From contig NW_020653409.1 in the NCBI RefSeq assembly GCF_003589595.1, positions 3,716,982 to 3,780,981 of the forward strand: DNA of 64,000 bases. Direction: 5' to 3'. Below the pieces are notes generated by a model. That model ran no database searches, was not told the DNA's origin, and saw only the letters and a program-made list of their open reading frames with translations. Shown here in pieces: positions 8,101 through 63,640 of this stretch. This DNA is from Hyposmocoma kahamanoa (Eukaryota > Arthropoda > Insecta > Lepidoptera > Cosmopterigidae). How positions within the stretch are numbered: the first letter of the stretch is position 1; each line of letters opens with the position of its first letter. Made by a program: the position numbers and the translations under genes.

Positions 8101-11100
8101 CCCCTTGAGTTATTTTCCTATGCTTATTGCAAATTAATCCATATAATTGTCTCTCGGATCGGCATCATAAAAATACAGGATTTTTTTTTTTCACATTTAG
8201 TCAGTCTGTTACCCAGATGAACTTTTTTACAAGTCTTTGAATGCAGTATTACTTACTTTTAAAAATAAAATACTGTTTCTACGGAGCAAAATACCATTAC
8301 TACAATATTTAAAGTACTTTTTAACAAATTATTATTTTGACATCTAGTCTCNNNNNNNNNNTAACTAGATGTCAAAATAATACCTAACTACGATATTTAA
8401 AGTACTTTGTAACAATTAATATTTTGACGTGTAGTTACTATTAAAATTGACCCATGTAACTATCACCGCGTTTAAATTACTAACCAACTATTAAATCATG
8501 TATGCACGCCCATGTAATATTATTAAAAAAGAAACGTGTTACACCTGGTTTAGTCTGTCCAAGCGAATGTGAGTGAATGTTTAATATAATAACCTGTAAT
8601 ATTTTTGTATGCCTAATGTCTAGCCGGACAGTCAACTATACTTATTTTGTACATACCAACGACTATACAACCTGTGTTTTCACAAATAAATGAATTATTA
8701 TTGTTTTGGATATCTATTTTAGACTCTCGCCTCTCCCAAGGCTTAATTAATCTTGAATTTTTAAATGGAGAGGCGGTATTCCGCCGCAATGGCACAGTTG
8801 GCCGGGGTTAGGGACTCAGGTTCAAGAACCGGCGAACAATACGTGTCGTATCGAGCAGGACCGCCTTCTGCATTTGTGCTGGAAGCGATTATTATTATTA
8901 ACAAAAGTTGTTGCTTTTGATGTGAGTTACATAGTCCTGCGAAGTTGTTATTATAAATAACCCTGTATAAGTAAAAGTTTCCTTTGTGTAAGACAATAAA
9001 GTCGATTTTCATTTATCTTTCGCAGATGGTAATTTTCGTGTTCTGGTGTTACGCGTGTAAATTCCTTCCCTCGGCCATATCCATATTAACTCTGTACGGA
9101 TTTACGCTGCGAGAATTCTGCGAGCAAATATCGACAGTGACAAACGCGACATCCTGCTGGATAGTTTACCCGATAAACGTGGGCAATTATACAGAGAAAC
9201 ACGACTTGAGTTTACGCAGCTGGCACGGCTGGGGCGATCATTTTTACGATGGCTTCTTTCTCGCACAGCACATTACTCTTGCGTTAATTACTCTGCATTT
9301 AAGTAAGTATATAATTAAAATTCTTAGGTTTTCGCGATTATTTTTGAAACTATTTTTTCTCATGTCGCACTGTTAATACAATAATGTATTAACTCAAAAA
9401 TTGTATTTATTACAGAATTGATGAAAAACGAATTACTTCCTGTGAAAGATCATTAAAATTTATGTATAGGTTAAAATTTATTACAGACATCTAAACAATT
9501 TCCTACGTTGCCAAATATAGTTATAAGTAGAAAAGAAACATTTCATGTTTTTGAGTAAAGACTGTTGCGTCCAGAACTAGCTTACAAAAAGTTTCTAATT
9601 TTGAGTTAAATTCTTTCTCTTAATATTCTAACGGCACTTGTACTGACGTGAAGAGAATTAAATTTTACTTTCAGTAATAGTATAATCATGAATTTCACCT
9701 ATTTTGAGTTATAATACTATTGTAATAGCAGTGCGATATGTCGTCTAAATTTCAAAACCTCGTAACTCCGTTTTTGGATGTATGTCTTTTTTACTCTTCA
9801 AACGCAATATCGGGCTATTACAGCTTAAAATACAATATGTTTTAGTTATAAAGTAAAGGTTCAATCCATTGACTTACAAATAAATGGACGACGGGTCTAA
9901 TACAAAAACCACGACAAAAATGTCCCAAGTCAACCTATTTAAACGTAGTGACATGTAAAGGAATATGAAAAAGCTAAAACGTTGTTTAAATTGTAATGTC
10001 CTCGCAGTACTGTCTAATTTTGCTTGCTTCGCTGTCAGTCGAACAAACGAAGACTAAAGCGTGAATGACGCTCTGTATACGATTTTAGCGCCCTATAAGT
10101 TCGGACACCTTTTAGCGAGGACCCGACGTCCATATAATTGTAAGTCAATGGTTCAATCATATATTGTCATGTAAATTCCTAGTAATTCTGTCTGCCTACT
10201 CAAAAGTTCACATTAATGGAGGTTTCGAGGTTTACGAATTTAGCTGACGAATGAGGCTATCAGCGCAATAGTGGTGTAATCCACATTCATTTTTTTTAAT
10301 AAAAATTTGTGCACATTTGTCCTCCATCTCACCTGATGGAAAGTGACGATGAGGTCGAGGATGTAGCATGATACCTAAATAAAGCCTCTCGCCTTGAAAA
10401 GGTCTAAGTTATAGCGTTCGGGGAACAAGTCTGCAGGCAGGGACTTCCGCTCCCAAGCCGCTCGCCATACAAATGTGGAAGCGAAACGCTTCGTACGAAT
10501 CCGGGGAATATCCACAACATAGGGGTGGAACCCCCGTCCACGTCTAGTCTCCCGATGATGGAAAGGGGAAGGCGGAATCAAATTATGCAATTCCATCGCA
10601 CACTCTCCGTGATACACCTGTATAGGGCCCGAAACGTCGGTTTGTTTGAAAAAACAAATATACGCGATTTAAATCCGGAAAAATAGTTTCATTTCCTATA
10701 AATACGTAATAATTTTACTGCCTCCGTGGTCGAGTGGCTTGCACCACGGTTTTCGTGGGGTCGCCTACTCTAGAGGTCCCAGTCTCAATATCCGACCGGG
10801 TCAGTGTAGAGAAGTAACGTTTCTATATTGTCTCGGGTCTGGGTGTTTGTGGTACGTTGTTTCCGATTTCCATAACACAAGTGCTTTAGCTACATACTTA
10901 GAGATCAGAGCGACGTATGTCATGTTGTCTAATATTATTTAATATTATTATTTTTATTTACTTATAATTATTTTATATTTCGATGTTTTTATAATACCAA
11001 GTGAACGGGCCGAACAACCGAACAACTCGTGGGCCTGGTGGTATCACATTGAGATATAAGTTGACAAGTCTCATGTGTAAAAAAAATATTATTAAACTTA

Positions 11101-14382: not shown

Positions 14383-14609
14383 CATTGACTTACAAATAAA
14401 TGGACGACGGGTCTAATACAAAAACCACGAAAAAAAGTCCCAAGTCAACCTATTCGAAATTTAAATTGTTATGTCATCGCAGTATCGCGCTGTCCGTAGA
14501 ACAAATGAAGACTAAAGCGGAGTGTCGCGCTCTGTATACGATTTTAGCGCCTTACAAGTGCGGACACTTTTTAGCGCGGACCCGACGTCCATATAATTGT
14601 AAGTCAATG
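14383..14609. mobile_element. hAT-like MITE, copy 2, with 8-bp target duplication
   Basis: Same family as 9867-10150: CATTGACTTACAAATAAATG at the left and its inverse ending TGTAAGTCAATG at the right. Perfect duplications TATTTAGT are at 14375-14382 and 14610-14617. Length is 227 bp; it lacks a block of about 57 bp present in copy 1. The longest short frame inside is not protein-like. Confidence 0.88.
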
Positions 14610-23246: not shown

Positions 23247-26186
23247 TTACTCTGGGGAATATTTAATTGCCCTAATGGCCTTTTTCGCCGTCCTCGAGGC
23301 TTCCTCTTGTACTCTGATCCGTCTTTCTTTCTCTGCCAATCCAATTACTACATCATGTTGTAAAGCGTTTTTTACTGAAGACTTTGCAAATAGTTTGCTT
23401 AGAACATAATCATCATCATTACCAAGTTTCTTTTGTTTATCTCTTTTGTGTTTCTTCTTTTTCACTTTTTTCACTGCTACCAAATTCTCTATCTCAGATT
23501 CTAAACGTGAATGTTTTCGTTTTCGTCGATTTGCAATTTTATCTTTATCCTTAACAATGTTTACATTATGCTGTGAGAATTCTTGCTCTGGCCTTTCGTC
23601 TTTTAGTGGTTTTAAGTTACTGGCTGCTATAGGTATATCTTTATTAACTTTTTCAGGTTCCTCTTCATCAGCATCTTTTTTTGATTCTTCAACATCCGAT
23701 ATTTCTCCTTCTTCCAGTTCCTCCTTTTTCATTATAACTTCCTTAATCAAATTCTCTTCGTAATCTTTCTTAACATGCATTGTAACTATATCAAGTTCTG
23801 ATAAAACATTGTCAAATGGAACATCAGTCACTTTGTCATCAATCAAGTTGATTTCAGGTTCTTCAACTTGAGGTGGATTCAGTAACAGTTCCCTTTCTTT
23901 CTTATACCTTTCCCTAGGATCTTCTTTGGGTTCTTTTGCTTTTTCAGTATCTCTCGAAATTTTTTTACTAATCTCTTTTGCCATCCTTTTCATTTCATCC
24001 AATCTTTTCTTTGAAAATGAGACACCTCCACTTAAAGGCACACTGTTATTTCTTTCCATATTTTTGTGGCTTACATTCACTTTTGTGTGTTTAAAAAGGG
24101 ATGCAGTTTCAGTATCTCCTTCACTATTCAGCTCTTCTAAAGTGAACAGACCTTGTAAAGTACTGGTAGTAAGAACATTTTTTTGATTTGGATCAATCAA
24201 AATCTTGTTGCTCAAAAAATGTTTGAAGATCTGTCTCTGATATATTTTTTCTTCAATAGTTCCAGCAGACAACAATCTGTAGACAGTGACATTTCTATGT
24301 TGACCTATTCTCCATGCTCTTTCTTTAGCTTGGTTATCAGTAGCTGGGTTCCAATCAGGGTCGTAAATGATTACTCTGTCAGCACCAGTCAAATTGACCC
24401 CTAATCCTCCAACCCTCGTTGTTGACAAAAACACCAAGTACTCTGAACTCTCATTAAAAGTTTTGATCAGACTTTGTCTCTGACCAACACTGACAGTGCC
24501 ATCCATTTTCAAGTATTTATAATTTTGGTTTTGTAAATACTGTTCTAATAAACAAAGCATGGCTCTGGATTGAGAGAACATTAGAGTTCTGTGACCTTGT
24601 TTTTGCCAGATTTTTAATAAGGAATTCACAACTGTCATCTTTCCACATCTTTTCCAATGACCAAACTTTTCTACGTCAATGTGTTCCATCTCTTCCTGGG
24701 CTTCATACAAGTATAAATCTGGGTGATTGCATATTTTTCGTAATGTAGACAGTGCAACTAACACTCTAGCCCGCAAAGGATCCCCAAATCTACTTTCTTT
24801 ATCAAGTATACTTCTCACTGTGCTGCTCATAAGATATCCCATATACAAATCCCGCTGTTCACGAGTTAATGCACAAAATAACACTTGCTCATTCTTTTCT
24901 GGTAAATTAATGTGTTCTTGAACTTCAGCTTTGGTTCTTCTCAGCATATATGGAGTAATAATGTTTTTCAATGCCTTAGCAATTTCCAATGCTGATGCTT
25001 CTTGCAATTCAGTGGCATTGGCATATCCACCTTGAGTTATAGGTTGAGCAAAATGCTCCATAAATACATTATAAGTACCTAGTAATCCTGGCCGCATGAA
25101 ATCAAATAAAGACCATAGTTCTTGAAGACTATTTTGCATTGGAGAACCAGTCACAAGTATTTTGTGGGGTGTCTGGAATTTTTTAATAAACTTACTAACT
25201 TGAGTTTCTGGATTCCTGATCTTGTGCCCTTCATCCAAAATGAGGTAGTGCCATTTTCGAGACATTAAATCAGCAGCATACCTCACAGCACCTGCATATG
25301 TAATTAATAAGATACCATGCGAGGATTGTACTTCCCTAATGAGTTTATTATGATTTCCAACATGCGAGCCTGAGTGATGCAATACTGCTACTCTTAACGA
25401 TGGGTACCAGTAATGAAAATGTGAAACCCACTGGAAAATAACTGTAGCTGGAGCAACAATTATAGACGGTCCCAGGCCACCGCAAGAACCACTGTCTGTC
25501 TTACAGAGGCCAGTCAGGAAACCTATAATCTGAACAGTTTTCCCTAAGCCCATTTCATCGCCAAGAAGACCTCCGGACTTAGTTTGGTGAAGTTCCCATA
25601 ACCATTTAATTCCAATCTTCTGATATTTATAAAGCTGTTTCCAGATGTAATTAGGAACGCATAAGCCATTCTGCAGTTCATGAAGTTCATTTGGATCATC
25701 ATTTCCACTCAAAACGTATTGTAAATCAGCAGTGTATGGATCGCCTTTGTATGTTTTTGCACACGCCGCCGCCAAGTCCTTCTTCCAGTTACTCACTCTT
25801 TCATTGTAAAGCGTAGTATCCCCATCGTCGATAATTTTCTTAACATGTTGTTTTACGCGGGAAAACGTTGGAAAAGAAGGTGAAAAATGTTCATCTTCTT
25901 CATCACACGAAGGTAAATATTCGTCTTCATCGGAATTCACAGACGTACCACCTTTCGACGACGAATGTCCTGCATTCGTAGATTCTTTGACGCATTTCTT
26001 GGTCTTGCCTTGTTTCTTTCCTATCGACTCTGCAGCAGCTCTGCTTTTATCAGAAACATTGTGTTCTTTCTTGCTGTTTTCACATTTTTGTTTCGCGAGT
26101 GCTAGTTGCGATTCCAGATATTTGTTTATATCAGCCATCGTAATAGGTGTTCGATATTCAAATAATTTCTTATTTGTTTGTATCAT
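23247..26186 (-). CDS. ERCC6: DNA excision repair protein ERCC-6/CSB-like SNF2 ATPase
   Basis: One open frame of 979 codons, no intron. SNF2 helicase motifs in order: Walker A GDEMGLGKT (209-217), DEGH box (318-321), TGSPMQN (346-352), LRRTKAEV (near 415), LRKICNHPDLYLY (near 482), DPDWNPATD (609-617) and QAKERAWRIGQ (619-629). GTIEEKIYQRQIFK follows, typical of CSB and not other SNF2 members. Acidic and basic low-complexity segments and a Lys/Arg-rich stretch (about 880-915, likely nuclear localisation) lie C-terminal. CSB remodels stalled RNA polymerase II and starts transcription-coupled repair in the nucleus. An in-frame stop precedes the first ATG at 26186; an ATG at 26139 (MADINKYLES) has better context and may be the true start (963 residues). 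Compared with about 1,490 residues in human CSB, N- and C-terminal parts are short; the human ubiquitin-binding and winged-helix tail is not seen. The promoter side faces PUM3. Confidence 0.93.
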   Translation of the reverse strand: MIQTNKKLFEYRTPITMADINKYLESQLALAKQKCENSKKEHNVSDKSRAAAESIGKKQGKTKKCVKESTNAGHSSSKGGTSVNSDEDEYLPSCDEEDEHFSPSFPTFSRVKQHVKKIIDDGDTTLYNERVSNWKKDLAAACAKTYKGDPYTADLQYVLSGNDDPNELHELQNGLCVPNYIWKQLYKYQKIGIKWLWELHQTKSGGLLGDEMGLGKTVQIIGFLTGLCKTDSGSCGGLGPSIIVAPATVIFQWVSHFHYWYPSLRVAVLHHSGSHVGNHNKLIREVQSSHGILLITYAGAVRYAADLMSRKWHYLILDEGHKIRNPETQVSKFIKKFQTPHKILVTGSPMQNSLQELWSLFDFMRPGLLGTYNVFMEHFAQPITQGGYANATELQEASALEIAKALKNIITPYMLRRTKAEVQEHINLPEKNEQVLFCALTREQRDLYMGYLMSSTVRSILDKESRFGDPLRARVLVALSTLRKICNHPDLYLYEAQEEMEHIDVEKFGHWKRCGKMTVVNSLLKIWQKQGHRTLMFSQSRAMLCLLEQYLQNQNYKYLKMDGTVSVGQRQSLIKTFNESSEYLVFLSTTRVGGLGVNLTGADRVIIYDPDWNPATDNQAKERAWRIGQHRNVTVYRLLSAGTIEEKIYQRQIFKHFLSNKILIDPNQKNVLTTSTLQGLFTLEELNSEGDTETASLFKHTKVNVSHKNMERNNSVPLSGGVSFSKKRLDEMKRMAKEISKKISRDTEKAKEPKEDPRERYKKERELLLNPPQVEEPEINLIDDKVTDVPFDNVLSELDIVTMHVKKDYEENLIKEVIMKKEELEEGEISDVEESKKDADEEEPEKVNKDIPIAASNLKPLKDERPEQEFSQHNVNIVKDKDKIANRRKRKHSRLESEIENLVAVKKVKKKKHKRDKQKKLGNDDDYVLSKLFAKSSVKNALQHDVVIGLAEKERRIRVQEEASRTAKKAIRAIKYSPE

Positions 26187-26770
26187 TAATTGCTACGAAA
26201 ACATAACTCCATAAATGAAATATTTTGCAATAATAAATTCATTATTTTTAAAATTACTTCGTGCACGGCACAAAAACAAAACATGTTCAGACATATTTTG
26301 TTTTTTTACGGCTCTGGGTACTTTGAAATTTGAGCCAAGAAAGACATATTTTGTTGTGTCCGGTGTGTGTGACCACAAACACAAATTAGATAGAGACAGT
26401 ACGTACACAAACTAATAAGAGATACCTATAGTACGCCGCCGCCGCCGGCGCCGTGTAATGCAGGATTACGATACAATGGACCAAGTTAGTACTCTTTGCG
26501 TAGACCTTAGTCTGGCAACAGTGAAAGCCACAGACAGAGTACTGTAAAAAAAAATAAAGTCAAATTGTCAATTTCAACTTCTGTACAGTACCGCACGTGT
26601 AGTTTTGTACAAAATTAAATACTTAATAAATATATATACATTTTATTCAATTAAGAAGTGTTTATTTCTTTTAAGGTAAGTAATGTAATGGGTTTTGAAA
26701 AAAAAAACACTGACATTTTGTTTGTAACCTCAAACTGTAATTGTAACCTCTGCACTTGTTTTTAATAGAA
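26187..26770. promoter_or_regulatory. Bidirectional promoter region between ERCC6 and PUM3
   Basis: The start codons of ERCC6 (minus) and PUM3 (plus) lie about 585 bases apart, head to head. The space has an isolated GC-rich run of GCC units (26435-26453) in an otherwise AT-rich background, and no recognisable repeat. A shared promoter is inferred from this layout; no core element was proven. Confidence 0.6.
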
Positions 26771-38200: not shown

Positions 38201-41200
38201 TTGTATACACATTTTGAAGAAATTAAGGTGTCCATCACGATATTTTCGTACCACATTGAAATTTTTTTTAATGCTATAGGTATTTACATATTGACATTTT
38301 CATATCAGTATTGCGGATTGGTATCTTGATTATGGAGTATGATTATGAAATAGAAATTAAATGCGGAACGAATCTGAAAGGCACTCTTGTTCAAACTACC
38401 ACAAGCACAGCAATAACACTTTTACTATTTGGTGTCATTTTTTTAAGCGACCACTTCAATTCTATAAATTAATGACGCATTCGACAACCCCCGCTACGCA
38501 ACGCGAGTTTACCGCCAGATTTTGAGAATGTATGCGTACGTACACGGCGCGCGTGCACACATACAAGCCGTGCTGCTACGTTAGTATGGAGTTTAGACTT
38601 GTGCCTGATCGGTCGTTAGAGGGAGCGATCCTAGTTAGTTCAATCGGTCAACTGAACTGGGTCAGTCTTCTAGTTCATCTAGTTCCTTAGTTCGTTTTGT
38701 CCTTGCTCGGATGCTGAACGAACGCTACAAACTAGTAATGTTATTCACATGAACTACTATGGACTTCTCGTATTATGAGGTCAATAGTACACTGTATTAA
38801 ATATTTAAAAATACAATTTGTATGAAATCGGTACTATTTGATTTTCCTTCATATTTCACATGTTTAAAAACAGTCATTCTAACTAAATATCCTTTTTTTT
38901 ACAAAACAAGAATTTTAGTTACAATGGTGTATTTAAAATACATATTACAATATTTAAGTACATGCATACAACTATTTCATATACTTGTACATGTAGGTTG
39001 ATATTATACATACAGATACCTACCACACCTACCACAACATATGAGCACTTATTTTTTTGCAAGCTTACATATACAGGGTGTCCCAAAACTCAACGTCAAG
39101 CGGGCATTGGGTGAGAGGCCAGGTTATATCAGTTCTGATAAAAAAAATCCATGTCACTTAGTTAAGTGATAATAGGCATATTTTTGAAAATGTTGAAAAT
39201 CGATACCCTAGACCACATGTTTAGGTATTGTCACATATGTGTATATTGTTATTAAAAAAACAAATAAGCCGAATTTTATGAAAAAAAAATAAAGAAACAA
39301 AAATCAAAATAAAAACAGAACTCGTCCAAAATTAAGTTGGTATAGTATTCATAGGAGGTGTCAATCTCATCACATTGTTATTGTTTTTACGCAACATCCA
39401 AAAATGGCACTTGATACACTTCGATTTATGGACGTGTGTACAACGGGTGCGGTTCGTAATATATAATAACAAATGACATATTAGTCGATATAACGCTCAA
39501 CAGATATTATTAATTTATGGTGCACAGACATTTGGTATAATCTTGCATGATATAAAGGTCACTGGGTATAATAGACGATTGATATAATAACTTTCAATCT
39601 AATACACCTATGGCAAATTGTTCATTTTTCCGACTTCAAAAAAAGTAGGTGGTTCTCAATTCGAGTGTATGTTTTTTTGTAGGTATGTTATGTATGTAGG
39701 TATGTAATGTTTTTTTTTAACGTCATCCTAAACAACCATGCTATTTATTGCAGTCACAAATCAAACAGTAAAGGTTATGAGTTTAGTAAGAAAAATTAAA
39801 TTTCCTTGAGTTCCAGCTTAAAAAAATTATGTCAGCTAGCTTTGATACTTCATTTTTTTTTTAATGTACTACACTACTCTGGGCAAGTTATTTGAAAAGA
39901 TGGCCCATTTAATAAAGATTTCAAAATAGTACAGTACTTGCCACTTGTCATTCCATAAAAAATGTTATAACTTATTTTTTGCAAAAGGATCTCGTTTCAA
40001 AAAAAAATTATACCATGATAAATGATGCTTTTTGTGTACTCAAAGATTGGCTTTACCATCGTCGAAGTGACATGGCCGTATGTGATAGAGTGAGATAGAT
40101 AGTGACGCACTTTAACATGAATTAGAGTGAGACAGATTGATAATCGACATTTAAAATGAGCGAGACGGATAGTGATGCCGATACTCTATTATTGATCATT
40201 GGTTATTATCATTTAGTACGCTACGTACCTTCGTTTACTGTGCATCTTCTCGTAATCGTGTAACTTTTGTACTGACGACTTTTGCTTGTGTTACCGTGGA
40301 CTTGATATTGCACTCGTATTGACGACTTTGGCTTATTCTCTTGACTCGATTTGTGTTGTGTAAACTGTATTAGTTAGCATTTAGCAAAACTATACTAATA
40401 TGCGAACATGCATCTTATTTATGGTGAATGCCATTGCCACTTTTCATTCCATAAAAAATGTTATATTTTTTATGGAATGAAAAGTGGCAAGTACTGTACT
40501 ATTTTGAAATCTTGATTAAATGGGTCATCTTTTCAAACAATTACAGTACATTTAAAAAAAATATGAAGTATCAAAGCTAGCTGACATAATTTTTTAAAGC
40601 TAGAACTCAATGAAACTTAATTTTTTTTCCTAAACTCATAACCTTTACTGTTTATTATTATTATTTATTTATATATCCAGCATTGGCTATAGAGCCATCA
40701 GCTTAAAAGGCAACAAATAATTAAGAAACTCGTAACGTAACATATTTGAACTAAAAATTAATAAATGTAAAACCAGTAACTACACAAATCAGCCATTTCT
40801 ATAATAACCTTTACTGTTTGATTTGTGACTGCAATAAACAGCATGGTTATTTAGGATGAGGTTAAAAAAAATCACTGCAAAATTTGAAAATTTGTGATGA
40901 TAGTACATGTGATCAAGGGTATCGATTTTCAACATTTTCAAAAATATGCCTATTATCACTTAACTAAGTGACATGGATTTGTTTTTATCAGAACTGATAT
41001 AACCTGGCCTCTCACCCAATGCCCGCTTGACGTTGAGTTTTGGGACACCCTGCATACATAATGAAGATACGTATTAGAGAATACTTTAGTACAAGCTAGC
41101 AACATTCAATCATACATCCCACTCGAACTTGTACTAAACAGTGAAAGATCGCTATTTGTCCCGCTTGCACCATTCCTACTGAATAAAAGACAGGTGAACT

Positions 41201-46366: not shown

Positions 46367-49054
46367 ATGAAAAAAGGCTATAAAGTGACTGATGTTCGAC
46401 GAGAAAAGAAAATTGGTGTCGCCGCTGAGAACCTTGAGGAATTGATCCAGAAGTCTTATAAAAAACTCGGTGTAAGTTGCTTTTGTTTGTGTTTACGATT
46501 TTACCGTAACTTTTAGGGTGCATTTTCTGTTGATTTGGATTATATTATAGACTGTTTAATTCATAAATTTCGTGTGACTATCTTTAGTACAGGTATTAGG
46601 TTGAGGATAGACCCTTGACACGTTTAAATTAGCCTTGACCGATATCCGACGTACCTTGACCTAATTCTCCATGAATATCGGTTTTCAGTTCAATGTCAGT
46701 AGTGCCGATTGTCGATTGTTTGTGGCCGAGGACGGGACGCTGGTGGACGACGATGACTATCTGCGCACTTTGCCTCCTCAGACGCTCTTTATTCTGTTAA
46801 AGAGCACTGAGAAAATGGTAACTGGTAAGTTTTAACAAAATTCAAGGTAAAGCTGTCTACTACGTTTAAGCGAAAACATCGACGATTATTACGTAATTTC
46901 TTAAGTTAACAATTATCTGAATGAAAATTAGGTTAAAATTTTTGCTTAGTACCTATAATTAAAGTTTAAAGATATTTTGTATATTTTTTTAAAATGTGTA
47001 CCATTATAAATTGTAATGTCAGCAAAAAATAAATAAATGAAAAAAAAATATACAGGTCTTGTTCTAAGTAAGAAAGAAGATAAATTGTAGCTTAGCAAAC
47101 AACACCGCACAAGTAATTTTGCTCAAGTTGTTAATTTTAAAGAGTGAAAAAAACCACATACTTCAAGGGAGAAAAGACAGAAGGCCAAACTATAATGAAT
47201 AATAAAATATTTATAAATGTTTTGGTTCATTATTCTTTTTAGTTTTATTACAGTTGGTAGGTTGTATAAATTGTATTGATTTTCAGTAGATCAACATGAA
47301 AACCATGTGCAGAGCTGAATTTTAGCTTTTTCTTGTGAAATACTACAGCTACTTTTACTTTAAATTTAATTTTTGAACGAAAAATGTTTTTTCGACAAAC
47401 AGATGGAAAACTCTTGAAATGTACCTACATCAATAAATAAAAAAATTGTATGAATAGGTCATTTTTGATAAAAGTTTTTTCACCTTTTCTTCTCTGAAAT
47501 GTGTGCGTATGCGCGTGTGTGTGTGCTATATTTATGAATAGGTATCAAATAATTTATTTGTGTGTTGGTTAGGGGTAGGCTGATACCACAGCCTTCTTCT
47601 TACTATGATTCTGCACACATAATATGTATTATTAAAGTTATCAAACAAAATTAGTGGTAGAAATAGTTAAGTGTGCGAAAGAAAGATAATTCCTAATTGT
47701 AGGTACTATGTGGTCATAAAAGCGAAATATTAGAAAATGTAATGAGAATTTATTAGTTATATAAATGGTAATAACTTTATGTTTTACAATCCAAATAGTT
47801 TCTTATTTATATATCTATTTAATTTAAAAAGTATAAAGTTGCACTCTAATTCCCAACTGATTTTTAATGTCCCTAAAATTGTAATAACTTGAAGTATACA
47901 TATATGTAGAGTAGTCGAGTTAGCAAACTATTTTAATTTGTGTTTCAGATTTCGACTTTTACTATAATATGATCAGATCGACAAAGAAGGAGTACATTGA
48001 TACAGGAAGAGCTGCCAAAGAGTTTCTCAGCACTAATATGAAAGAGAAGTTCCGTCTGTTCCAGAAATACATTGCAGCCGCTGATGATGCGCGCACCATG
48101 CTTAGTGAGCGTAAGCAAGATCCCAATTGGTTTGAAGGTAGGCTGGAATCCACTGAATTTAATTTTACAGTGCTAATGACAAAATTTTGCGTACTTAGTT
48201 GCATCGAAGATTCCACTGTCGTGTAAAATCTACGTGTCACTGTTTGGTTTTTATTAAGTGTTCTTTTTTATGTATTGTTTCTCTAACGGGGCAGACATGT
48301 TCAATAATGATAAAAGCCCTTAAATAAATAAACAATAGCAAAATATCTATGAGTCCCACGTAGGGCGCCATAAATTTATTTTGATGAATACATAATTCTC
48401 GTTACAGGTTTGGAGTCCTCAGAAAAAACCAAAGAACAATCTATGTCAAAACGTGTCAAAGACCGTATGAGGGGATATTACTACAAAACCAAAAGTGCAC
48501 TGCAGGCATCCGAGCTCTATGTGCATTCACGTAATTGGCGCGGTAAGAAACTGATAGATCAGTTCCTTCTGGATCTTCGGAAACTTCTTGAATCTAATAA
48601 GTACAATGAGACGTATTTTAATCGAAAAGCCAACGAAGACGATCGTTTATGCGATGAAAAGGGACTATTCGTTTGCAATGGTCTCTGGAACAACAACAAA
48701 TGCGAATACGAGGGCGAACATGTCATAAATCCTTACCGAAGTCGAGAGGAAAGGATTATATTCCAGACTTGGAATTTGGACCACAGGATTGAACTATCCA
48801 GGTCCATAATACCGAAGATATTGGAAGCTATCGTGGCTTTATATAAAGGGGATATTAAATGTATATCATGCGAGAAAGATTTTAAGAGGGGCGGCGTCGA
48901 GACTGATCGGTATTATTTACAGATTTTCACTCGTGAGAATTTAAAACTGGTGCACATTGTTTGCCATTATAAAGGGAAACATGACACTAATTCTGACGTG
49001 TACACGGTATGTAATAAATGTTTCAGGGGTCAGAGCATTGAGTTCTGTAACTAA
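46367..49054 (+). CDS. DFFB: DNA fragmentation factor 40 kDa subunit / caspase-activated DNase
   Basis: Four exons: 46367-46471 (ATG), 46689-46824, 47949-48137 and 48408-49054 (TAA), GT-AG throughout, phases exact, 358 residues. Exons 1-2 form the CIDE-N domain (KGYKVTDVRREKKIGVAAE; EDGTLVDDDDYLRTLPPQT), which pairs with the inhibitor DFFA/ICAD. Exon 4 is the nuclease: H248 in GEHVINPYRSREER, H269 in TWNLDHRIE, and H326, H330 and H335 in KLVHIVCHYKGKH. These five histidines keep the spacing of the mammalian catalytic and metal-binding set (21 apart, then 4 and 5). Cys-rich pieces (CNGLWNNNKC; CISC; CNKC) may hold zinc. The enzyme cuts linker DNA in apoptosis after caspase release; the Drosophila relative is DREP4. 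All key residues are present, so it should be active. Intron 2 (1.1 kb) contains a short LINE-like A-rich tail near 47030. Confidence 0.94.
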
Positions 49055-52000
49055 GTTTTTACAACTTGAAGAATGAAGTTACGAACTTGATTTAGAGGCA
49101 TCATTGTCTTATGTTAAACATGCCATAATATAAAAGCGAAAATATCTTACGTCAACGAAAATTGACAATCAACTTTATTTTCTTAAAATTACAAAAAAGG
49201 ACAACCATGCCTCAATTTTATTTTTGTATAATTAAAAGTTTCAAAAATAGTAATGGAGTAATTAGGCACTTATTTCGTTTATTTTTTAACTTTAAAATTT
49301 ATGTCTGTCTATTTGTGTAATATTTAAATGTGCCAAATATCATACTAAATGTACTTACTAAAATTGGATATACCTACATATACTTTTTTGGAATATAATT
49401 ACTCGAACGGCTTCTAGTATCGTAGTCAATGTAGAAAATATCACTAAAGTAGTGGATTTATGAATGTTAACATGTTATATTGTTATGGGGCCTTTTTAAA
49501 TGGCGAATATATTGTCTGAAAGAGGGACAGGGCTACTGGAAGGAACGAGACATGTATTAATATTTTTCAAGGCAGGATACTGGGAAATAATGGTACATTC
49601 TGATTGATTTTATTTTTAATAATACATATTCTTCGAAAACAAAAGTTATGAGGAACATGAACTAAATTTGTGGCCTAGCCTTAACGAAAGTAAAAGAAGG
49701 GCTCAGTCCAATAAATTTAAAATAGTACAATGTCATAAAATAGGTATAAACAATATAAAATACTTCATACTAATACTAAACAGTATAAATTCCAGGCACT
49801 TATGATGCTTTAAAAACATTTAAATTACGTGAAGTTGAGTTTTATATAATTATTAATAACCACGTCCTCTCGCTTCTACAATGTTAATACGAGTGATAAT
49901 TGAACGAACTAACGCAACGTAAGAATAATGGAAGGAAAGGAATTCGAGAAGAAATAAATAAAGAGGGTGCCAAAAATTTGGATGACGATGAAGGAGTTCA
50001 GCATCGTCATAAACTGTCGGTAGGATTATTTGTGGACCGAGGAACAAAAGTTACAGTAGTGTGTCTAACACTTGTACGCGTACAGGGGTGCTCTCTCTTC
50101 CTGCCGACATATTTGCCAGGGCTCTGTTAGATTACAAAGATTTTTATATTCCACGAATTATTCTCCTTTACCCTTCATTATAGCTAGAGTAGGCGTGTAT
50201 TAGACACACAATTTCCAATATCACTACTATTTTGATATAATGAAATGCTCCAATATGTGATAGTCTTGTTTTCCTGGACGGAGACAGCAGGTGTGAGGGA
50301 AGTGAGGGAAGGAGAATTAGGCTTTGGGCAAATCACCTAATATGTTGTTGACTTGAAGAAACTAACACTTCAAAATCCGCGCTATGTGTATGACGTATTT
50401 GTGTAATTTAATAATAAAAAAATAATTATTTTTTTTTAATCATGTTTCGACTGAAATAAAATTGAATCATGTATCTATTTTGACCCAAGGCAGTCATTTA
50501 AAGGTAAAAAGTACCTACAATAATTTGCTTTTTAGATGCTATGACCAAGATGAGTAAATTTTACTCACCTTGGTCATAAAATTTGAAAAAACTAACATTT
50601 GGTTTACTAATTCATTTTTCAATGCAGTTACAAGAAAAGTTGTACCTTCTATAATTTGAAGCGAGCGAAAAATGGTACCTACGTTTTTGTCTTAGCAAGG
50701 AAACTTCTTATATTTAATGCAATACATTAAAAGTATTTAAATTATATTAAAAAAATTAACAATGGATTCGTAAATTAATCGCCCGCGGTTCGGGCATAAG
50801 GTGCCAATTCGTTTGCAATAATCTAGGTACTTTCCGCGAGTAAAATAATTAATTTTTAAATAAAATAATTTTTGCTGCACTTGTACTTTGACTTAAACAA
50901 GATATCGGAAAGTAACATTCAACCTCAATTTTAATACAGGGTTATTAGATAGCCATAAATGAGAAGCAAATGATATATTTATGTACGAATTATTCTTAAA
51001 AAGGATTATTTTTAGGAAAAATATTTAAAATTATTTTTCTTGAACGACTGAAAATATCGAATTTCTATTTATTTTTATTATTAGATAGGTACGTAATGTA
51101 ATAATGATGGAAAAGGACCTTTTTTTGATAATAATGATGATATTTGCTATTATCAGAAAAGCTCCTATGGTCGAGTTGGAGTAAAGGATTAGTGTGGATA
51201 TATCATTGCATTTTGAAAGCAGCTGTCCACAATACTGTTTTTATAATTGTTCTTCCTATCATTGACAACCTTTCGCAGATAACCTAATGGAACTTAATAA
51301 ATGAATTTCAGTAAATATAACATATAACTATTAACTTAAAATTATGTAGTTACTGTAATCTTTAGAATTAAGAGTTTTAAAAATCGAAGAATATTCTATT
51401 TTGTTACAAGCGTATATTGTTATTAAGTAGATTATGCGATGTATGCGTTGGTCTCATGCCTTTTCTAGAAATAATCGTGGCTCTGTTTATACGTAATAAG
51501 TGATGAAATAATTAAGTTTTTTACTAAATTTTAACTTGTCACATTTACACGTATTTTAGTGAAGCTATTTTGACATTTTAGCAACACTATATAAGTGCTT
51601 CAAACTTTAACTCACGCCTACCGGTGAATGCGCTACATAATGTTGGGATGGAAAAATTTCCATTTAAAAAAAAACATATTTTTCCACATTTTACAGTGAC
51701 ACCCTTATGAAGTTTTAAGAGCTTATTTGAAGAGAACTTTTAAAATAAGCCAAGCAGGGTTCAGAAAATTACATTAGCAATGTTTATACAATTTTATTTT
51801 ATAATTCATGCAAAATAAACGTAAAAAAATTATCCAAACGTAGAACTTCGCATTATACGAGCCTTTTTTCCAATTTTTCCTGAAATATTGCCATTTTCAT
51901 TTTTTCGGAAAATTGCCAACCGCTACCTTAAGTCTAGTCTAGCCTAGCCTAGTAAAGGTCGGTTATTTCGCAAAAAAAAAAGGTTTGATTTTAATTTATT

Positions 52001-55380: not shown

Positions 55381-56625
55381 CATTGACCTACCAACAAATG
55401 GACGTCGTGTCTAATACAAAAACCACGAAAAAAATGTTCGAAGTTAACCTATACAAACGTTAAATTGTAATGTCATTGCAGTACTGCCTAATTTTGCTTG
55501 CAACAATTTAAAGGCCCAAAAACAACATATTCAGCTTCTACTGGAAAATTAACAAAATGCACAATATTAAGCTTCGACTGAAAATTACAAAATTCAAAAT
55601 AATCTTTATTTCATAAGCATTATTACATTTGAAATCGTCACATGAACACACAGAGTAATGGAGCAGCCTTTATCGTAAATATTAATTAATTTTTATATAT
55701 ATTATCATGTCGAATTTTGTACAAATTCACTTAAAGAAATAATAAAGAGTTGGGCAGGACATCATACATATATACCTACAAATATTACTACAAATGTGAA
55801 AATAAGAAATGTACCGATATTCCAACTAAACGTAAACTCTAATATTCGTAATTCCGAAAACCGGTTTATTATAAAACCATTACGCTTTCCAGTAATTTTG
55901 ATGCTTTTCACAAAGACAAAATTGGCTTTTGTTTTGTAATCTTCCTAAAAAAATACATTCGACATTGTGAAAATTCGAGCAAACGTTATTTCGGGCAAAT
56001 GTATTTTCTGACTTCTGATAGGTAATCACAAGCCGTAAAACGAGTACAACAATATTTTGTTAGTTACTGCTAAAGTTTACTAAAAAATAATTTTAAAAAT
56101 AAGATTAAAATCAAAGCGACTCTATGGTGTCTTTGTTCTAAATATTTCATCGCTTGCGGTTCGAACAATTGAAAATGACCAAGAAGCTTCTTGTTTGTTT
56201 ATATAAGCTTCTTGAAATTGACGTACTGGGTCTCTTTCCATCTTTTGCGCATGCAATGTGTGGAAAACGGACAGTTAGCTATTTGATTATTTTGTGTGCT
56301 TTTGTAATTTATATTTACGAGTTATTTACGATTCATTTATATATAAATTAAATTTATAAAACTGCTCAAAATAACACTTTTAAATGAGAACTATGATAGA
56401 TAACACAATATATTTGTTTAGTGAAATTATGATACGAAATCCTGTTTTTGCACTTTACTGCAGTAATTTTTACAAATTATTATATGGTACTGCATGATTG
56501 ACAACCGCGCTGTCAGTCGAACAAACGAAGACTGTTGCGCGATTGACGCTCTGTATACGATTTTAACGCCCTATACGTGCGGATTTTTAGCGCGAACCCG
56601 ACGTCCATTTATTGGTAGGTCAATG
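55381..56625. mobile_element. hAT-like MITE family, large copy (1,245 bp) with 8-bp target duplication
   Basis: Ends CATTGACCTACCAACAAATG and the inverse ending GGTAGGTCAATG. Perfect CATAAAAT duplications lie at 55373-55380 and 56626-56633. The first about 125 bp and last about 120 bp match the halves of copies 9867-10150 and 14383-14609. About 1 kb in between (near 55501-56508) is absent from the other two copies, so it is either a nested insertion or the longer ancestral form. No transposase frame is seen. Confidence 0.82.
56608..56613 (-). terminator. Candidate RRS1 polyadenylation signal inside a MITE end
   Basis: On the minus strand the MITE end reads CCAATAAATGGACG, placing AATAAA 53 bases after the RRS1 stop codon. 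It is the first canonical hexamer downstream of the gene. Use is inferred. Confidence 0.5.
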
Positions 56626-59600: not shown

Positions 59601-60794
59601 CTCTTATCAAAATGCGCAAAACATACATGCAACTACAGTGCGTCTGCGACACGTATAGGTGCAATAATTTGTGAATGTGTGCAAAGGTTTACTTGCAGGC
59701 TACATTGCGATAACGCGCGTCTGCACATGGCGTATAAAATACACCATGTGCAGGCTCTTAATGGTTTTTCAACTACTTTTAAATGCAATAATACTTAGTA
59801 AGGAAACAGAACAATGTGAAAGCTAACCCATATAACGGCACCCATTTCTGAAGCTGTTCATCCCATTTGAGTTTGTCTTTCTTATTTTTAGTGATTCCCT
59901 TGGCTTTAGCAAACTCCTGCCATTTAGTGAGGGGCTTGGGTTTCGGAACAGGCTTGGCACGTGGCAAGATTGTTGTTGGTGCCGGCAACCGTACCACTAT
60001 TGCCTCTTCTATCCTCTCTGTTGGCAACTCCCACACTTTGTTCAACAATAACTGAGTATTGTCACGGGCTAACGATAGTAGATACGCATCTCTGTCTTTA
60101 TCTGATCTGCAAACAGTTTCATCAAGATCATTATTACAGCGATGTTATGAGGAAATGCTTCGCTCAAGGATATTAAATCAGGCAACAAGCTAACTGAGCT
60201 TTGGAGACAACCTAGATATGGAGATAAATAGACTTGAAACTAATATTGTTGTAAAGGAGTCCATAGGTTACTCACAGAAAATATAATCTTAACGTAAAGT
60301 ATTGTATGTCAAAATTGCCAAGTTTACAGGGGAGCCTTTTAAAGTTCTGAATTCACTAAAATAAGCATAACACGTGACTTTAGATTTCTCACTTTTATTC
60401 GGCAAATCTCGTAACACACGTTGAGTATCATAAAATCCTAGATATCGGTTAGATGATCTATTAAATGATCACTCTATGTGAGTAACAAGCTTTGCCAAAG
60501 GAAACGGAGAACTTTAAAACACTCCCCTGTAAACTTGGCAATTTCGACATACGATACTTTACGTAGGAGGCGTCGCTTTGTCAGATTTTGTTATACTTTG
60601 TTACCGTAAATCTTATGAATGAACGTAAAGTAAAACAATACTTACTTCAATAACTTAGCTTCCAAATCATTAGTATCCGACGCAAGTAACGTACCAAGAT
60701 CTATGTCTAAATCTAAATGCTTTTCAACTGTGATAGGTTTGTACTTCTCAGCCTTTTTCTGTTCTCTTTCCAAAATTTCATTTACTATATCCAT
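56666..60794 (-). CDS. RRS1: Ribosome biogenesis regulatory protein RRS1 homolog
   Basis: Five minus-strand exons: 60794-60646 (ATG), 60106-59828, 58271-58052, 57351-57089 and 56816-56666 (TAA). GT-AG borders and exact phases give 353 residues (human RRS1 is 365). Family landmarks: DLGTLLASDTND; LARDNTQLLLNKVWELPTER; RLPAPTTILPRAKPVPKPKP; LTKWQEFAKAKGI; KLKWDEQLQKWVPLYG; NWLIEIPQNVHPMTDMYEKK; VAKNELQRLKNIARARK; KASTASLGKFQDKLPKEK; and a Lys/Gly/Arg-rich tail ending GPGRKRR. RRS1 loads the 5S RNP (with RPF2, uL18, uL5) into pre-60S particles in the nucleolus. Introns are loaded with mobile DNA: a foldback MITE in intron 1, the Penelope-like endonuclease copy in intron 2 and a pseudo-LTR in intron 3. 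The 3' end abuts a hAT-like MITE whose terminal repeat supplies the first AATAAA. Confidence 0.94.
57661..57807 (-). mobile_element. Penelope-like pseudo-LTR, single copy in RRS1 intron 3
   Basis: Runs from TATCGAGTTCTTAAGTTTTC and TACACATAGGAA through GTCAACTGTGACCATG and AACCTGTATAGTGCCCC to GGAAAATAGTTTCATTACCT. It keeps both the outer CGAGTTCTTA end and the inner end in one unit, so it shows the extent of one pseudo-LTR unit, about 147 bp. Confidence 0.68.
58583..59576 (-). mobile_element. Penelope-like element remnant with inverted pseudo-LTR arms, in RRS1 intron 2
   Basis: The left arm (58617-58934) and right arm (59270-59573) are inverted copies of about 300 bp, near 90 percent alike by eye. 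They share GGAAATGAAACTATTTTTCC, CCGACGTTTC.GGCCCTTTAC, GGTGGTACAGTCTTCAACCA, ATGCAAACCACCCTATTTTT and TTATTAATTAAATACCTTAT. Between them lies an endonuclease remnant on the minus strand. Pseudo-LTRs that may be inverted, around a GIY-YIG endonuclease, are a hallmark of Penelope-like retroelements. No reverse transcriptase part remains. The element shares orientation with the host gene. Confidence 0.85.
58963..59268 (-). pseudogene. GIY-YIG endonuclease remnant of a Penelope-like element
   Basis: The minus-strand frame of 102 codons begins DFIYIGQTKRSICARVKEHI, continues HRRVNKSTVCEHVMDKPTHS and VLAKEVRYLPRMLREAIEI, meets a stop at 59056-59058, and then runs on as KHPNFNREGGFSVPPVWDPV. The YIG half, the arginine of KRS...ARVKEH and the catalytic glutamate of REAIEI are kept. 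The GIY half and all upstream sequence are missing because the inverted arm starts there. It is truncated and interrupted, so inactive. Confidence 0.85.
60293..60567. mobile_element. Foldback MITE in RRS1 intron 1
   Basis: Left arm ACGTAAAGTATTGTATGTCA, AAATTGCCAAGTTTACAGGG, GAGCCTTTTAAAGTTCT; right arm is its inverse (AGAACTTTAAAACACTCCCC; TGTAAACTTGGCAATTTCGA; CATACGATACTTTACGT). Arms are about 58 bp with few mismatches. No target duplication was found. Confidence 0.78.
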
Positions 60795-61260: not shown

Positions 61261-61312
61261 TTGAGCGCGTGACCCTCACGTTTAAGCCTAAACGTGAGGG
61301 TCACGCGCTCAA
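61261..61312. repeat. Perfect 24-bp-arm hairpin
   Basis: Arm 61261-61284 (starting TTGAGCGCGTGACCCTCACG) pairs without mismatch with 61289-61312, leaving a 4-base AGCC loop. Its high GC content contrasts with the AT-rich surroundings. No direct duplication is obvious at the edges. Confidence 0.92.
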
Positions 61313-61969
61313 CATATACCAACTGATCATCATCACCATATTATTTAAGAGCCAGGCTCTTGTCGGTGGCTCATAATAATGGAAATTTTACAAAACAAAG
61401 TGATCCAAATCCTACAGGATAATTTTATATAAGGCGGCATGCCGACAATTCTATATAAAATGTATATCATTTAATGCTGATTTATAAGCCCATGTGCCCA
61501 TGTGCGATGTTGAAAAAAATATCAATAAACAAATAAATTGTGTTTTTATCAATAACCATCAACTTAGCGAGGCAACAGCAATCGATAGATAAAATGAAAT
61601 GGCAAAATGCTAGAATCCCTTCTCATTATTTTCCCCCACACACACAGTCAATTCCCATAAAAATCCCCAATCGAGATGAAATTCCCCGTGATTTAGGGAT
61701 TGCCTCGTAAATTGGCAACACTGCAGCTTTAATTTTTTTTTGTTTTGGTACTGTTTTTTCCATTGGAAAAGGCAAAGGCACTAATGCGCCATACAGCCAA
61801 GACTGATTTTTTTTTATATATTAATAGTTTTATGGCGTCGGCATAAATCTATTGAGGTAAATCTTCAAACATTTTATTTTATAAATCCCCTTTTTAGGAT
61901 GAAAAAAGAAAACCATAGTCTGACACTGCGTTTACACTATCATGCTGGCTATACAAGTACTACTTACAA

Positions 61970-61987
61970 CATTGACTTAAGTCAATG
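61970..61987. mobile_element. 18-bp palindromic micro-insertion with 8-bp flanking duplication
   Basis: CATTGACTTAAGTCAATG is exactly the two 9-bp terminal tips of the hAT-like MITE family (CATTGACTT and AAGTCAATG) joined head to head. ACTTACAA lies directly on both sides (61962-61969 and 61988-61995). The flank also resembles inner end sequence of the same family, so chance resemblance should be kept in mind for this copy. Confidence 0.7.
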
Positions 61988-62034
61988 ACTTACAACTATT
62001 TTCTTAATATAATAATAATATTAAGAAAGTAGTT

Positions 62035-63640
62035 GCTTACTTTAGTAAAAGAACCTCACCGGCAGAATCGAACTACTGTTCATATGACTTGGAAACATTA
62101 GCCATATACAATGCACTAAAACACTTCTGAGTGTACCTGTTAGGTATTAAATTTCAGTTATTCACCGATTGTAATTCCATCAAATCAACAATGAGTAAAA
62201 ACGACTTGTCTCCTCGTGGTGAACATATATGCAAGATTCTGATTTTGAGGTCATATACAAAAAGGGTAAATATATTGGTCACGTAGATTTCCTTAGTCGC
62301 AATCCAGTCAAAGAATCCGTAAAATCCTTTGTGTTAGGCAATGAGCCCAAACCACATCAAAATTATTCCAAACCCCATCTAGTTTCAATACAATTAACAG
62401 AACCTGTTAAATCTGAGGATTTATTGTCTACTACAGTTAACCTACTTGGTACTTGGTGTAACGGGCTGGTGTCCACAACTCGACGTCAAGGCACCTATTT
62501 TGCGTGTGGTACAGTTAACATAATCAATGACCCCCCCATCTTGGTTGGAAACGGCTCAGCAAAATGACAATGAAATGCAGAATTTAATTAATCAAGTTAT
62601 TACTGGTGATCTTGACGGAAATCGTTATTTCATGCAAAATAATTTGCTGTTTTACAAAGACCAATCAAATGAATCTAAACTGTATGTACCCAAAGGATCA
62701 AGATTCAATCTTTTAAAACTTTTTCACGATGAAAATTGCCATGTAGGTCTTCATAAAACAGTGAATAAAATTAAAGAACATTTTTGGTTTCCTCGCATGT
62801 CTGCATTTGTTCAAAAATATTTAAGACATTGCTTAATATGTATCGAACGTAAAGGTCACTCGGTTCCAAACATTGACTTAAGTCAATGGTTCCGAAGCAA
62901 GGTTTTCTATTTCCCATTGATAAAATTCCTATCCCCTTCCACACGATTCATTTAGACTGCACAGGTCCTTTTCCTAGAACAAATGAGGAATACAAGTACA
63001 TTTTGCTCATGTTGGATGGATTTACAAAATTCTGTTCATGACCCCTGAAAACTTTGAATTCTGAAGAATTGATACCTCTTATACGGGACACAATCACCCT
63101 GTTTGGTACCCCTTCAAATGTTATGGCTCTAATTTTAGTTCAAATCAAATACAATCGTTATTTAGAGAATTAGGAATTGGGCATCAAATGATAGCTACGG
63201 GTACCCCAAGACGCAACGGTCAGGTTGAGCGATATGTAGCCACGGTGATAGACATGTTAAATACCACATGTAATTGTTCGTCAGACTGGCCGAGCGGATT
63301 GTTCGAAGTACAACAATCAATTAATACTACTATCCAGAAATCCACTAGCTTCACACCCATTCGTCTTTTAATTGATTGTAATGCAAATATTCCAGGTATT
63401 CAGTCATGTTTGAATGATGTCGATGTTTCTGAACAAAACATAGATGTAAGAGCAGATCGCGAATTGGCTCACCAGCGTTTATTATTACAAGCAAATAAAT
63501 TTAAAACTCGTTTTGACGCGATACTAAAACGTTTGAAATACATGATACGGTGTATGTAAATCAGGATCATAGACGACACGACAAGTGAAGTCCTAGATTT
63601 AGAGGACCCTATGAAATCTCCTCTATTCTCCCACATGATA
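62035..63640 (+). pseudogene. Ty3/Gypsy retrotransposon pol remnant (RNase H and integrase)
   Basis: The RNase H end reads YFSKRTSPAESNYCSYDLET, LAIYNALKHF, then LFTDCNSIKSTMSKNDLSPR, with a shift near 62218 and EVIYKKGKYIGHVDFLSRNP. The integrase zinc-binding HHCC is intact (FHDENCHVGLHK...HCLIC, about 62726-62843). The core keeps the first aspartate region (HLDCTGPFP, 62949-62975) and the glutamate in NGQVERYVATV. The segment with the second aspartate is broken by a small deletion near 63126, where the frame passes directly from VMA to SNF. Frame is lost at several places. LTRs, gag and protease were not seen. It is a dead fragment. Confidence 0.85.
62871..62888. mobile_element. 18-bp palindromic micro-insertion in Gypsy integrase
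   Basis: The identical CATTGACTTAAGTCAATG is flanked by GTTCCAAA (62863-62870) and GTTCCGAA (62889-62896), an 8-bp duplication with one difference. It adds 26 bases to the integrase frame and so shifts it. On either side the protein reads on sensibly only if the insert is skipped. Confidence 0.82.

Follow-up and report, generated by a model that had tools for sequence, protein, structure and literature searches.

Introduction

In the genome of the moth Hyposmocoma kahamanoa, the integrase sequence of a degenerate Gypsy copy is interrupted by an 18-base palindrome, CATTGACTTAAGTCAATG, which stands between two nearly identical stretches of eight bases. The locus raises the question of how two transposon ends come to lie tip to tip inside a duplicated target, and which kind of element left them there. 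Excision scars of P elements are known from fly genetics, and the palindrome is ordinary in kind; the natural record of such scars in this one moth genome is unusually rich. Here we report an analysis of the window, i.e., the whole stretch of 64,000 nucleotides that contains the locus, and of the genome assembly. We hold with high confidence that the 18-mer is an excision scar, and we consider it very likely that each of these palindromes is the excision footprint of a MITE of the P superfamily.

Sequence data and searches

The genome searches covered an assembly of 727,957,541 bases, with the reversed sequence as control. Pairs of MITE tips were searched with the pattern CATTGACTT, any 0-30 bases, AAGTCAATG (total span up to 48 bp). 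Junctions were read at 50 listed sites among the 769 that matched, all 50 of which were fetched; one is located on contig C3, and the other 49 fall within the initial 16.1 Mb of contig C8, where they are roughly three times as dense as the genome-wide mean of 769 sites in 728 Mb, so that the sample may be unrepresentative. The same 16.1 Mb contain none of the 27 exact 18-mers of the assembly.

Among viral contigs, neither the terminal inverted repeat (TIR) of the MITE nor the 18-mer had a match, and no Gypsy relatives were found; the TIR had no match among prokaryote contigs. A literature search with the letters of the TIR returned no transposon paper, as judged by title, and one with the letters of P-element footprints returned only an unrelated oligonucleotide. 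A combined-term search yielded no literature on lepidopteran P elements, and no genome-wide account of P scars was found in print by title and abstract, which is not proof of absence.

The palindromes of the window

The interrupted integrase is organized as follows (TSD, target site duplication).

62533..62868, strand +, Gypsy integrase, zinc-binding part (PF17921), frame 1, interrupted at scar F2
62863..62870, no strand, left TSD GTTCCAAA of scar F2
62871..62888, no strand, scar F2, CATTGACTTAAGTCAATG, MITE tip and MITE tip with the junction at TA
62889..62896, no strand, right TSD GTTCCGAA of scar F2, 7/8 equal to the left
62892..62972, strand +, Gypsy integrase continuation, frame 3, beyond scar F2

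The preliminary description had reported the palindrome with its 8-bp duplication at 62863-62896, and both are present. It had also ascribed to them a frameshift of 26 bases, in agreement with the alignment to P0001, the single relative of the Gypsy protein found in a protein database search (69% identity to the upstream integrase piece). The segment 62533-62868 aligns with residues 20-131 of P0001 and the segment 62892-62972 with residues 131-157; because residue 131 takes part in both alignments, the window holds 26 nt (18 + 8) that are absent from P0001.

Only one palindrome had been noted at first, and an identical copy 901 bp away, with exact flanks, had been overlooked.

61962..61969, no strand, left TSD ACTTACAA of scar F1
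61970..61987, no strand, scar F1, 18-bp palindrome identical to F2
61988..61995, no strand, right TSD ACTTACAA of scar F1, 8/8 equal to the left
62011..62127, strand +, Gypsy RNase H fragment (PF17919, E 9.3e-10; PF17917, E 5.3e-9), right of scar F1

Scar F1 ends 23 nt upstream of the RNase H fragment, which is taken to be part of the same Gypsy copy as the integrase. The target of F1 (61962-61995) is identical to positions 6-13 of the MITE TIR, probably by coincidence. A 43-bp imperfect hairpin (61993-62035; 21-nt arms, 90%) abuts the right end of F1 and overlaps the Gypsy RNase H sequence.

Of the perfect palindromes in the window that reach 10 bp (110 in all), only three have 8-bp flanks that are equal at 7/8 positions or more: one is an A/T run at 50416, and the other two are the 18-mers. 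In 200 dinucleotide shuffles of the window, the mean number of such palindromes was 0.07, and 0.05 matches to CATTGACTTAAGTCAATG are expected in a shuffled window when up to three mismatches are allowed. When loops of up to 20 nt were permitted, two extra 7/8 cases (31638 and 56180) and no further 8/8 case appeared. In the assembly, 769 tip-tip sites stand against two in the reversed control. A chance palindrome next to a chance repeat, which has only the AT-rich background in its favour, is refuted by these counts, and its probability is negligible.

Tip-tip scars occur on average about once per megabase (769 in 728 Mb), which makes two scars within 901 bp unusual. Nearby reinsertion is known for P elements, but across 50-150 kb (PMC7776569); from this one case, local reinsertion may be the source of the paired scars.

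Other features of the window include two perfect fold-backs, one at 61261-61312 (TTGAGCGCGTGACCCTCACGTTTA..., with arms of 24 bp and a loop of 4 nt), which lacks exact flanking repeats of 8 bp, and one at 40434-40490 (26-bp arms, 5-nt loop). Host genes are an ERCC6-like gene (23247-26192, strand -), DFF40 (48374-49054, strand +) and an exon of RRS1 (59779-60144, strand -). The nearest named relatives of the ERCC6-like gene are from Pectinophora gossypiella (74%) and Tuta absoluta (71%), as befits a moth host that is probably gelechioid.

The MITE family and the copies of the 18-mer

Three members of the family that furnished the tips are located in the window.

9867..10150, strand +, full MITE, 284 bp, TSD GTTCAATC (8/8), 31-bp TIR (28/31 left versus right)
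14383..14609, strand +, full MITE, 227 bp, TSD TATTTAGT (8/8)
55381..56625, strand +, longer member, 1245 bp, TSD CATAAAAT (8/8), diverged TIR CATTGACCTACC..., no ORF of at least 120 aa

The TIR of the family begins with CATTGACTTACAA...; it is 31 bp long in all three members and reads CATTGACTTACAAWTAWATGGACGWCGGGTC in both short MITEs, with 28 of 31 positions equal between the ends. The earlier view of the palindrome as two tips of this family is upheld. The same 9-bp end had been assigned to the elements at 9867, 14383 and 55381; the last of these keeps its place in the family, with ends that read CATTGACCT and not CATTGACTT. Five further full MITEs were encountered in other scanned loci (L022, with 7/8 flanks, L027, L043, L049 and L055). 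A rough density of three full MITEs per 29 loci of about 3.1 kb (L031-L059), which were picked for another repeat, hints at a genome-wide copy number in the order of ten thousand.

The expectation that copies of the palindrome elsewhere in the genome would also carry 8-bp flanking repeats was borne out. The assembly contains 27 exact copies (reversed control, 0), and the flanks of all of them (2 in the window, 25 fetched) were read; 19 have flanks equal at 8/8 positions and 23 at 7/8 or more. The other four are L009 (1/8), L018 (5/8), L020 (6/8) and L021 (2/8). At L021 (985-1034), the flanks of the 18-mer are inverted copies of each other, giving a palindrome of about 50 bp that could be the fusion of two sister ends.

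At L010, the insert lies in a repeat family with 40 listed copies, and 29 copies besides L010 were fetched. The insert is absent from all 29, and the exact single target CATAGAAT is present in 27. An event one base away was found at L017, in another copy of the same repeat. This repeat (960-1060 in L010/L017) opens with CTTAGAATAATAACGCATAGAAT, a start similar to the CTTAGA TIR of a P element at L122.

The 18-bp palindrome could itself be the smallest form of a mobile element, able to insert and to duplicate 8 bp of target, akin to the minimal end-to-end insertion that the preliminary description had considered. The 27 identical copies, 23 with a duplication of their own and two only 901 bp apart, would fit such a unit, as would locus L022 (1001-1254), where the order is TSD, 18-mer, TSD, full MITE, TSD, the 18-mer directly adjoining the MITE with one duplicated target common to both. 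The exact 18-mer nevertheless represents just 27 of the 769 tip-tip sites, i.e., one product within a spectrum, and among the 50 listed others asymmetric junctions predominate, as the joining of tails predicts. A junction spectrum in which the listed tips end at 18 nt is not what a mobile 18-bp unit would lead one to expect, and two abutting 9-bp tips are presumably too short for transposase binding. We regard transposition of the tips alone as very improbable and excision of a full MITE as the preferred reading.

Junctions and proposed cut site

Flanks at the 50 listed tip-tip sites were equal at 8/8 positions in 40 cases and at 7/8 or more in 44; the six exceptions are L076, L093, L101, L108, L113 and L114. 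Microhomology of 1-4 nt was present at 33 of the 50 junctions (1 nt in 14, 2 nt in 17, 4 nt in 2), and the remaining junctions were either blunt (8) or had 1-12 added bases (9). Inserts did not exceed 30 bp at 48 of the 50 sites; a few scars have longer or complex inserts, such as L105 (43 bp, 8/8 flanks).

Deletion of a resident MITE by replication slippage or through a hairpin, with no transposase involved, would draw on the TIRs as inverted repeats and on the microhomology at 33 of the 50 listed junctions. Such deletion sets no limit at 18 nt, and 48 of the 50 listed inserts stay within 30 bp though the pattern allowed 48 bp; we give this explanation very little probability in comparison with excision by a transposase.

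In the listed set, the retained tips have an upper limit. The longer tip measures 18 nt at 15 of the 50 listed sites, where the lengths pile up. In eight of these 15, microhomology permits 16 or 17 nt, leaving seven unblurred readings (L077, L080, L084, L085, L087, L093 and L120; six of the seven with a duplication), for which 17 nt plus one added base remains an alternative. Readings of 19 or 20 nt (L082, L097, L106 and L114) have enough microhomology to make them 18, and only L076, which lacks a target duplication, requires tips of more than 18 nt among the 50 listed. Two other loci provided additional scars. A one-sided scar at L128 consists of a TSD, an 18-nt tip (16-18 possible) and a TSD, the right tip being wholly lost. 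A second scar at L009 (24 bp, 8/8 flanks) is read as belonging to the CATTGACCTACC subfamily.

The limit at 18 nt also bears on aborted gap repair, which the preliminary description had offered as a further origin. In this scenario, a clean excision, e.g., of a hAT element, would come first; a short stretch of the element ends would then be copied back from the sister chromatid, and end joining would close the break. Products of synthesis plus joining are frequent after excision of the Drosophila P element (PMC2895639), and the few listed scars with longer or complex inserts (L105) point the same way. Synthesis tracts should vary in length, however, and randomly aborted synthesis predicts no stop, whereas the tips of the listed set stop at 18 nt. 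Moreover, hAT transposases form hairpins on the flanks (PMC6900584; PMC3878927), and the footprint rows of the hAT element Ds are free of tips (PMC1978519, Table 1), consistent with the earlier statement that ordinary hAT excision leaves no tips behind. Aborted gap repair is thus unlikely.

The simplest reading of the 18-nt stop in the 50 listed scars is a long staggered cut inside the TIR, at 18 and not at 17 nt. A tail of 10 nt had initially been expected from the two window copies, because tails of that length need no trimming; it was abandoned when the wider set showed better joins, which 17-nt tails allow, and the stop at 18 nt.

Under this reading, insertion of a MITE with the 31-bp TIR CATTGACTTACAAWTAWATGGACGWCGGGTC would first have produced an 8-bp target duplication within the Gypsy copy. 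A transposase of the P type, acting in trans, would then have cut one strand exactly at the end of the element and the other about 18 nt inside the TIR, and each flank would have retained some 18 nt of the tip in single-stranded form. The tips would stay on the flanks and be joined because a P-like transposase cuts inside the terminal repeat. In end joining, the two tips would pair at the self-complementary TA (TIR positions 9-10), and the loss of 8 nt from each tail would place CATTGACT(TA)AGTCAATG between both target copies, a net gain of 26 bp that shifts the integrase frame. What the letters of the listed scars show directly are the duplications, the retained tips, the range of junctions and the stop near 18 nt; the P-type enzyme and the end-joining pathway are what these features point to, and the strand polarity of the overhang is presumed by analogy with Drosophila P.

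We give even chances to the more specific proposal that the cleavage site of the transposase lies 18 nt into the TIR, unlike that of Drosophila P, and that end joining has left hundreds of frameshifting scars as a natural archive. Our confidence in this proposal, and in the assignment of each palindrome to excision of a P-superfamily MITE, is tempered by a sample drawn almost wholly from one contig and by just seven clean 18-nt readings.

Probable assignment to the P superfamily

The MITE family in all likelihood belongs to the P superfamily. The 8-bp TSDs characteristic of this superfamily were found at 8/8 in all three MITEs of the window, and at 7/8 or more in 23 of the 27 18-mers and 44 of the 50 listed scars. 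In Drosophila, the TIR of the P superfamily has 31 bp, and so has that of the MITE, although this length alone is not specific to the P superfamily.

The genome contains 65 matches to the P transposase domain PF12017, and six of them (L060-L065) have equal scores and an open frame of 874 aa, which suggests a recently active P family in the moth. Ten loci were widened, and in three of them (L122, L123 and L127) a 31-bp TIR pair and 8-bp TSDs enclose the P domain; the protein of L123 carries PF21787, PF21788, PF12017 and PF21789. Two of these TIRs begin with CATCGA or CATGGA and one (L122) with CTTAGA. The MITE TIR bears a modest likeness to those of L123 (matched by 14 of 2000 shuffles) and L127 (by 11 of 2000) and none to that of L122 (by 571 of 2000). 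An autonomous element with the MITE's own TIR on both sides of a P domain was found neither in the 10 widened of the 65 loci nor in a set of 12 loci, each about 3.2 kb long. In five TSDs, no more than four of eight positions agreed with the target motif of Drosophila P, GTCCGGAC; this motif is not taken as defining the superfamily, because the element 1360, also classed under P, has a different target motif (PMC3276498).

If the 18-nt stop holds, the scars disclose where and how a transposase cuts even though its gene was not found, allow an orphan MITE to be assigned to a superfamily without an autonomous partner, and document germline end joining in a moth through junctions that arose in nature. 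If the cut is indeed at 18 nt, cut sites and germline end-joining habits would become readable without experiment. As a caution for annotation, palindromes of 18-30 bp between short repeats may be scars and not regulatory elements or tiny transposons.

Comparison with known systems

The family had been called hAT-like, and the 8-bp TSD is indeed common to the moth MITE and to hAT elements (hobo, Hermes, Ds). Elements of the hAT type form hairpins on the flanks and lose their tips on excision (PMC6900584; PMC3878927; PMC1978519, Table 1), whereas the tips of the moth MITE were kept at 769 counted sites, and both positions of the hAT target rule nTnnnnAn are satisfied in just four of 23 scars. 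A hAT origin was rejected, and the family is better described as P-like.

The Mutator-like element Muta1 of Aedes aegypti has TSDs of 8 or 9 bp, comparable to those of the moth MITE, and in the absence of donor TSDs it occasionally leaves up to 13 bp of TIR (PMC5225508). When TSDs are present, the same source describes its excision as mostly precise, with a cut inferred outside the TIR, whereas the tips of the moth MITE remain between the duplications; with tips so retained in the listed scars, membership among the Mutator-like elements was not supported.

P-MITEs of Anopheles gambiae likewise have 8-bp TSDs, and their parent P subfamilies have TIRs of 27-31 bp (PMC1562414). They differ in that autonomous masters are known there; the main text of that paper never uses the word 'footprint'.

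A close parallel is the Drosophila P element. There, transposase cleavage takes place 17 nt into the TIR (PMC7776569), and the junctions of P{wa} formed without homologous repair consist of target, tip, microhomology or insertion, tip and target, with 17-nt tails (PMC2895639, Table 1). Of 66 isolates as summed from that table (68 according to the figure legend), 19 are perfect palindromes with the join at AT or TA, and many other junctions in the table lack one tip or both. P{wa} and the moth MITE therefore have the same layout of TSD, tip, junction, tip and TSD, in which joins at self-complementary AT or TA yield perfect palindromes (PMC2895639; PMC5466332). They differ in that the Drosophila tails are 17 nt long and stem from experimental events, whereas the scars of the moth are natural and their listed tips stop at 18 nt.
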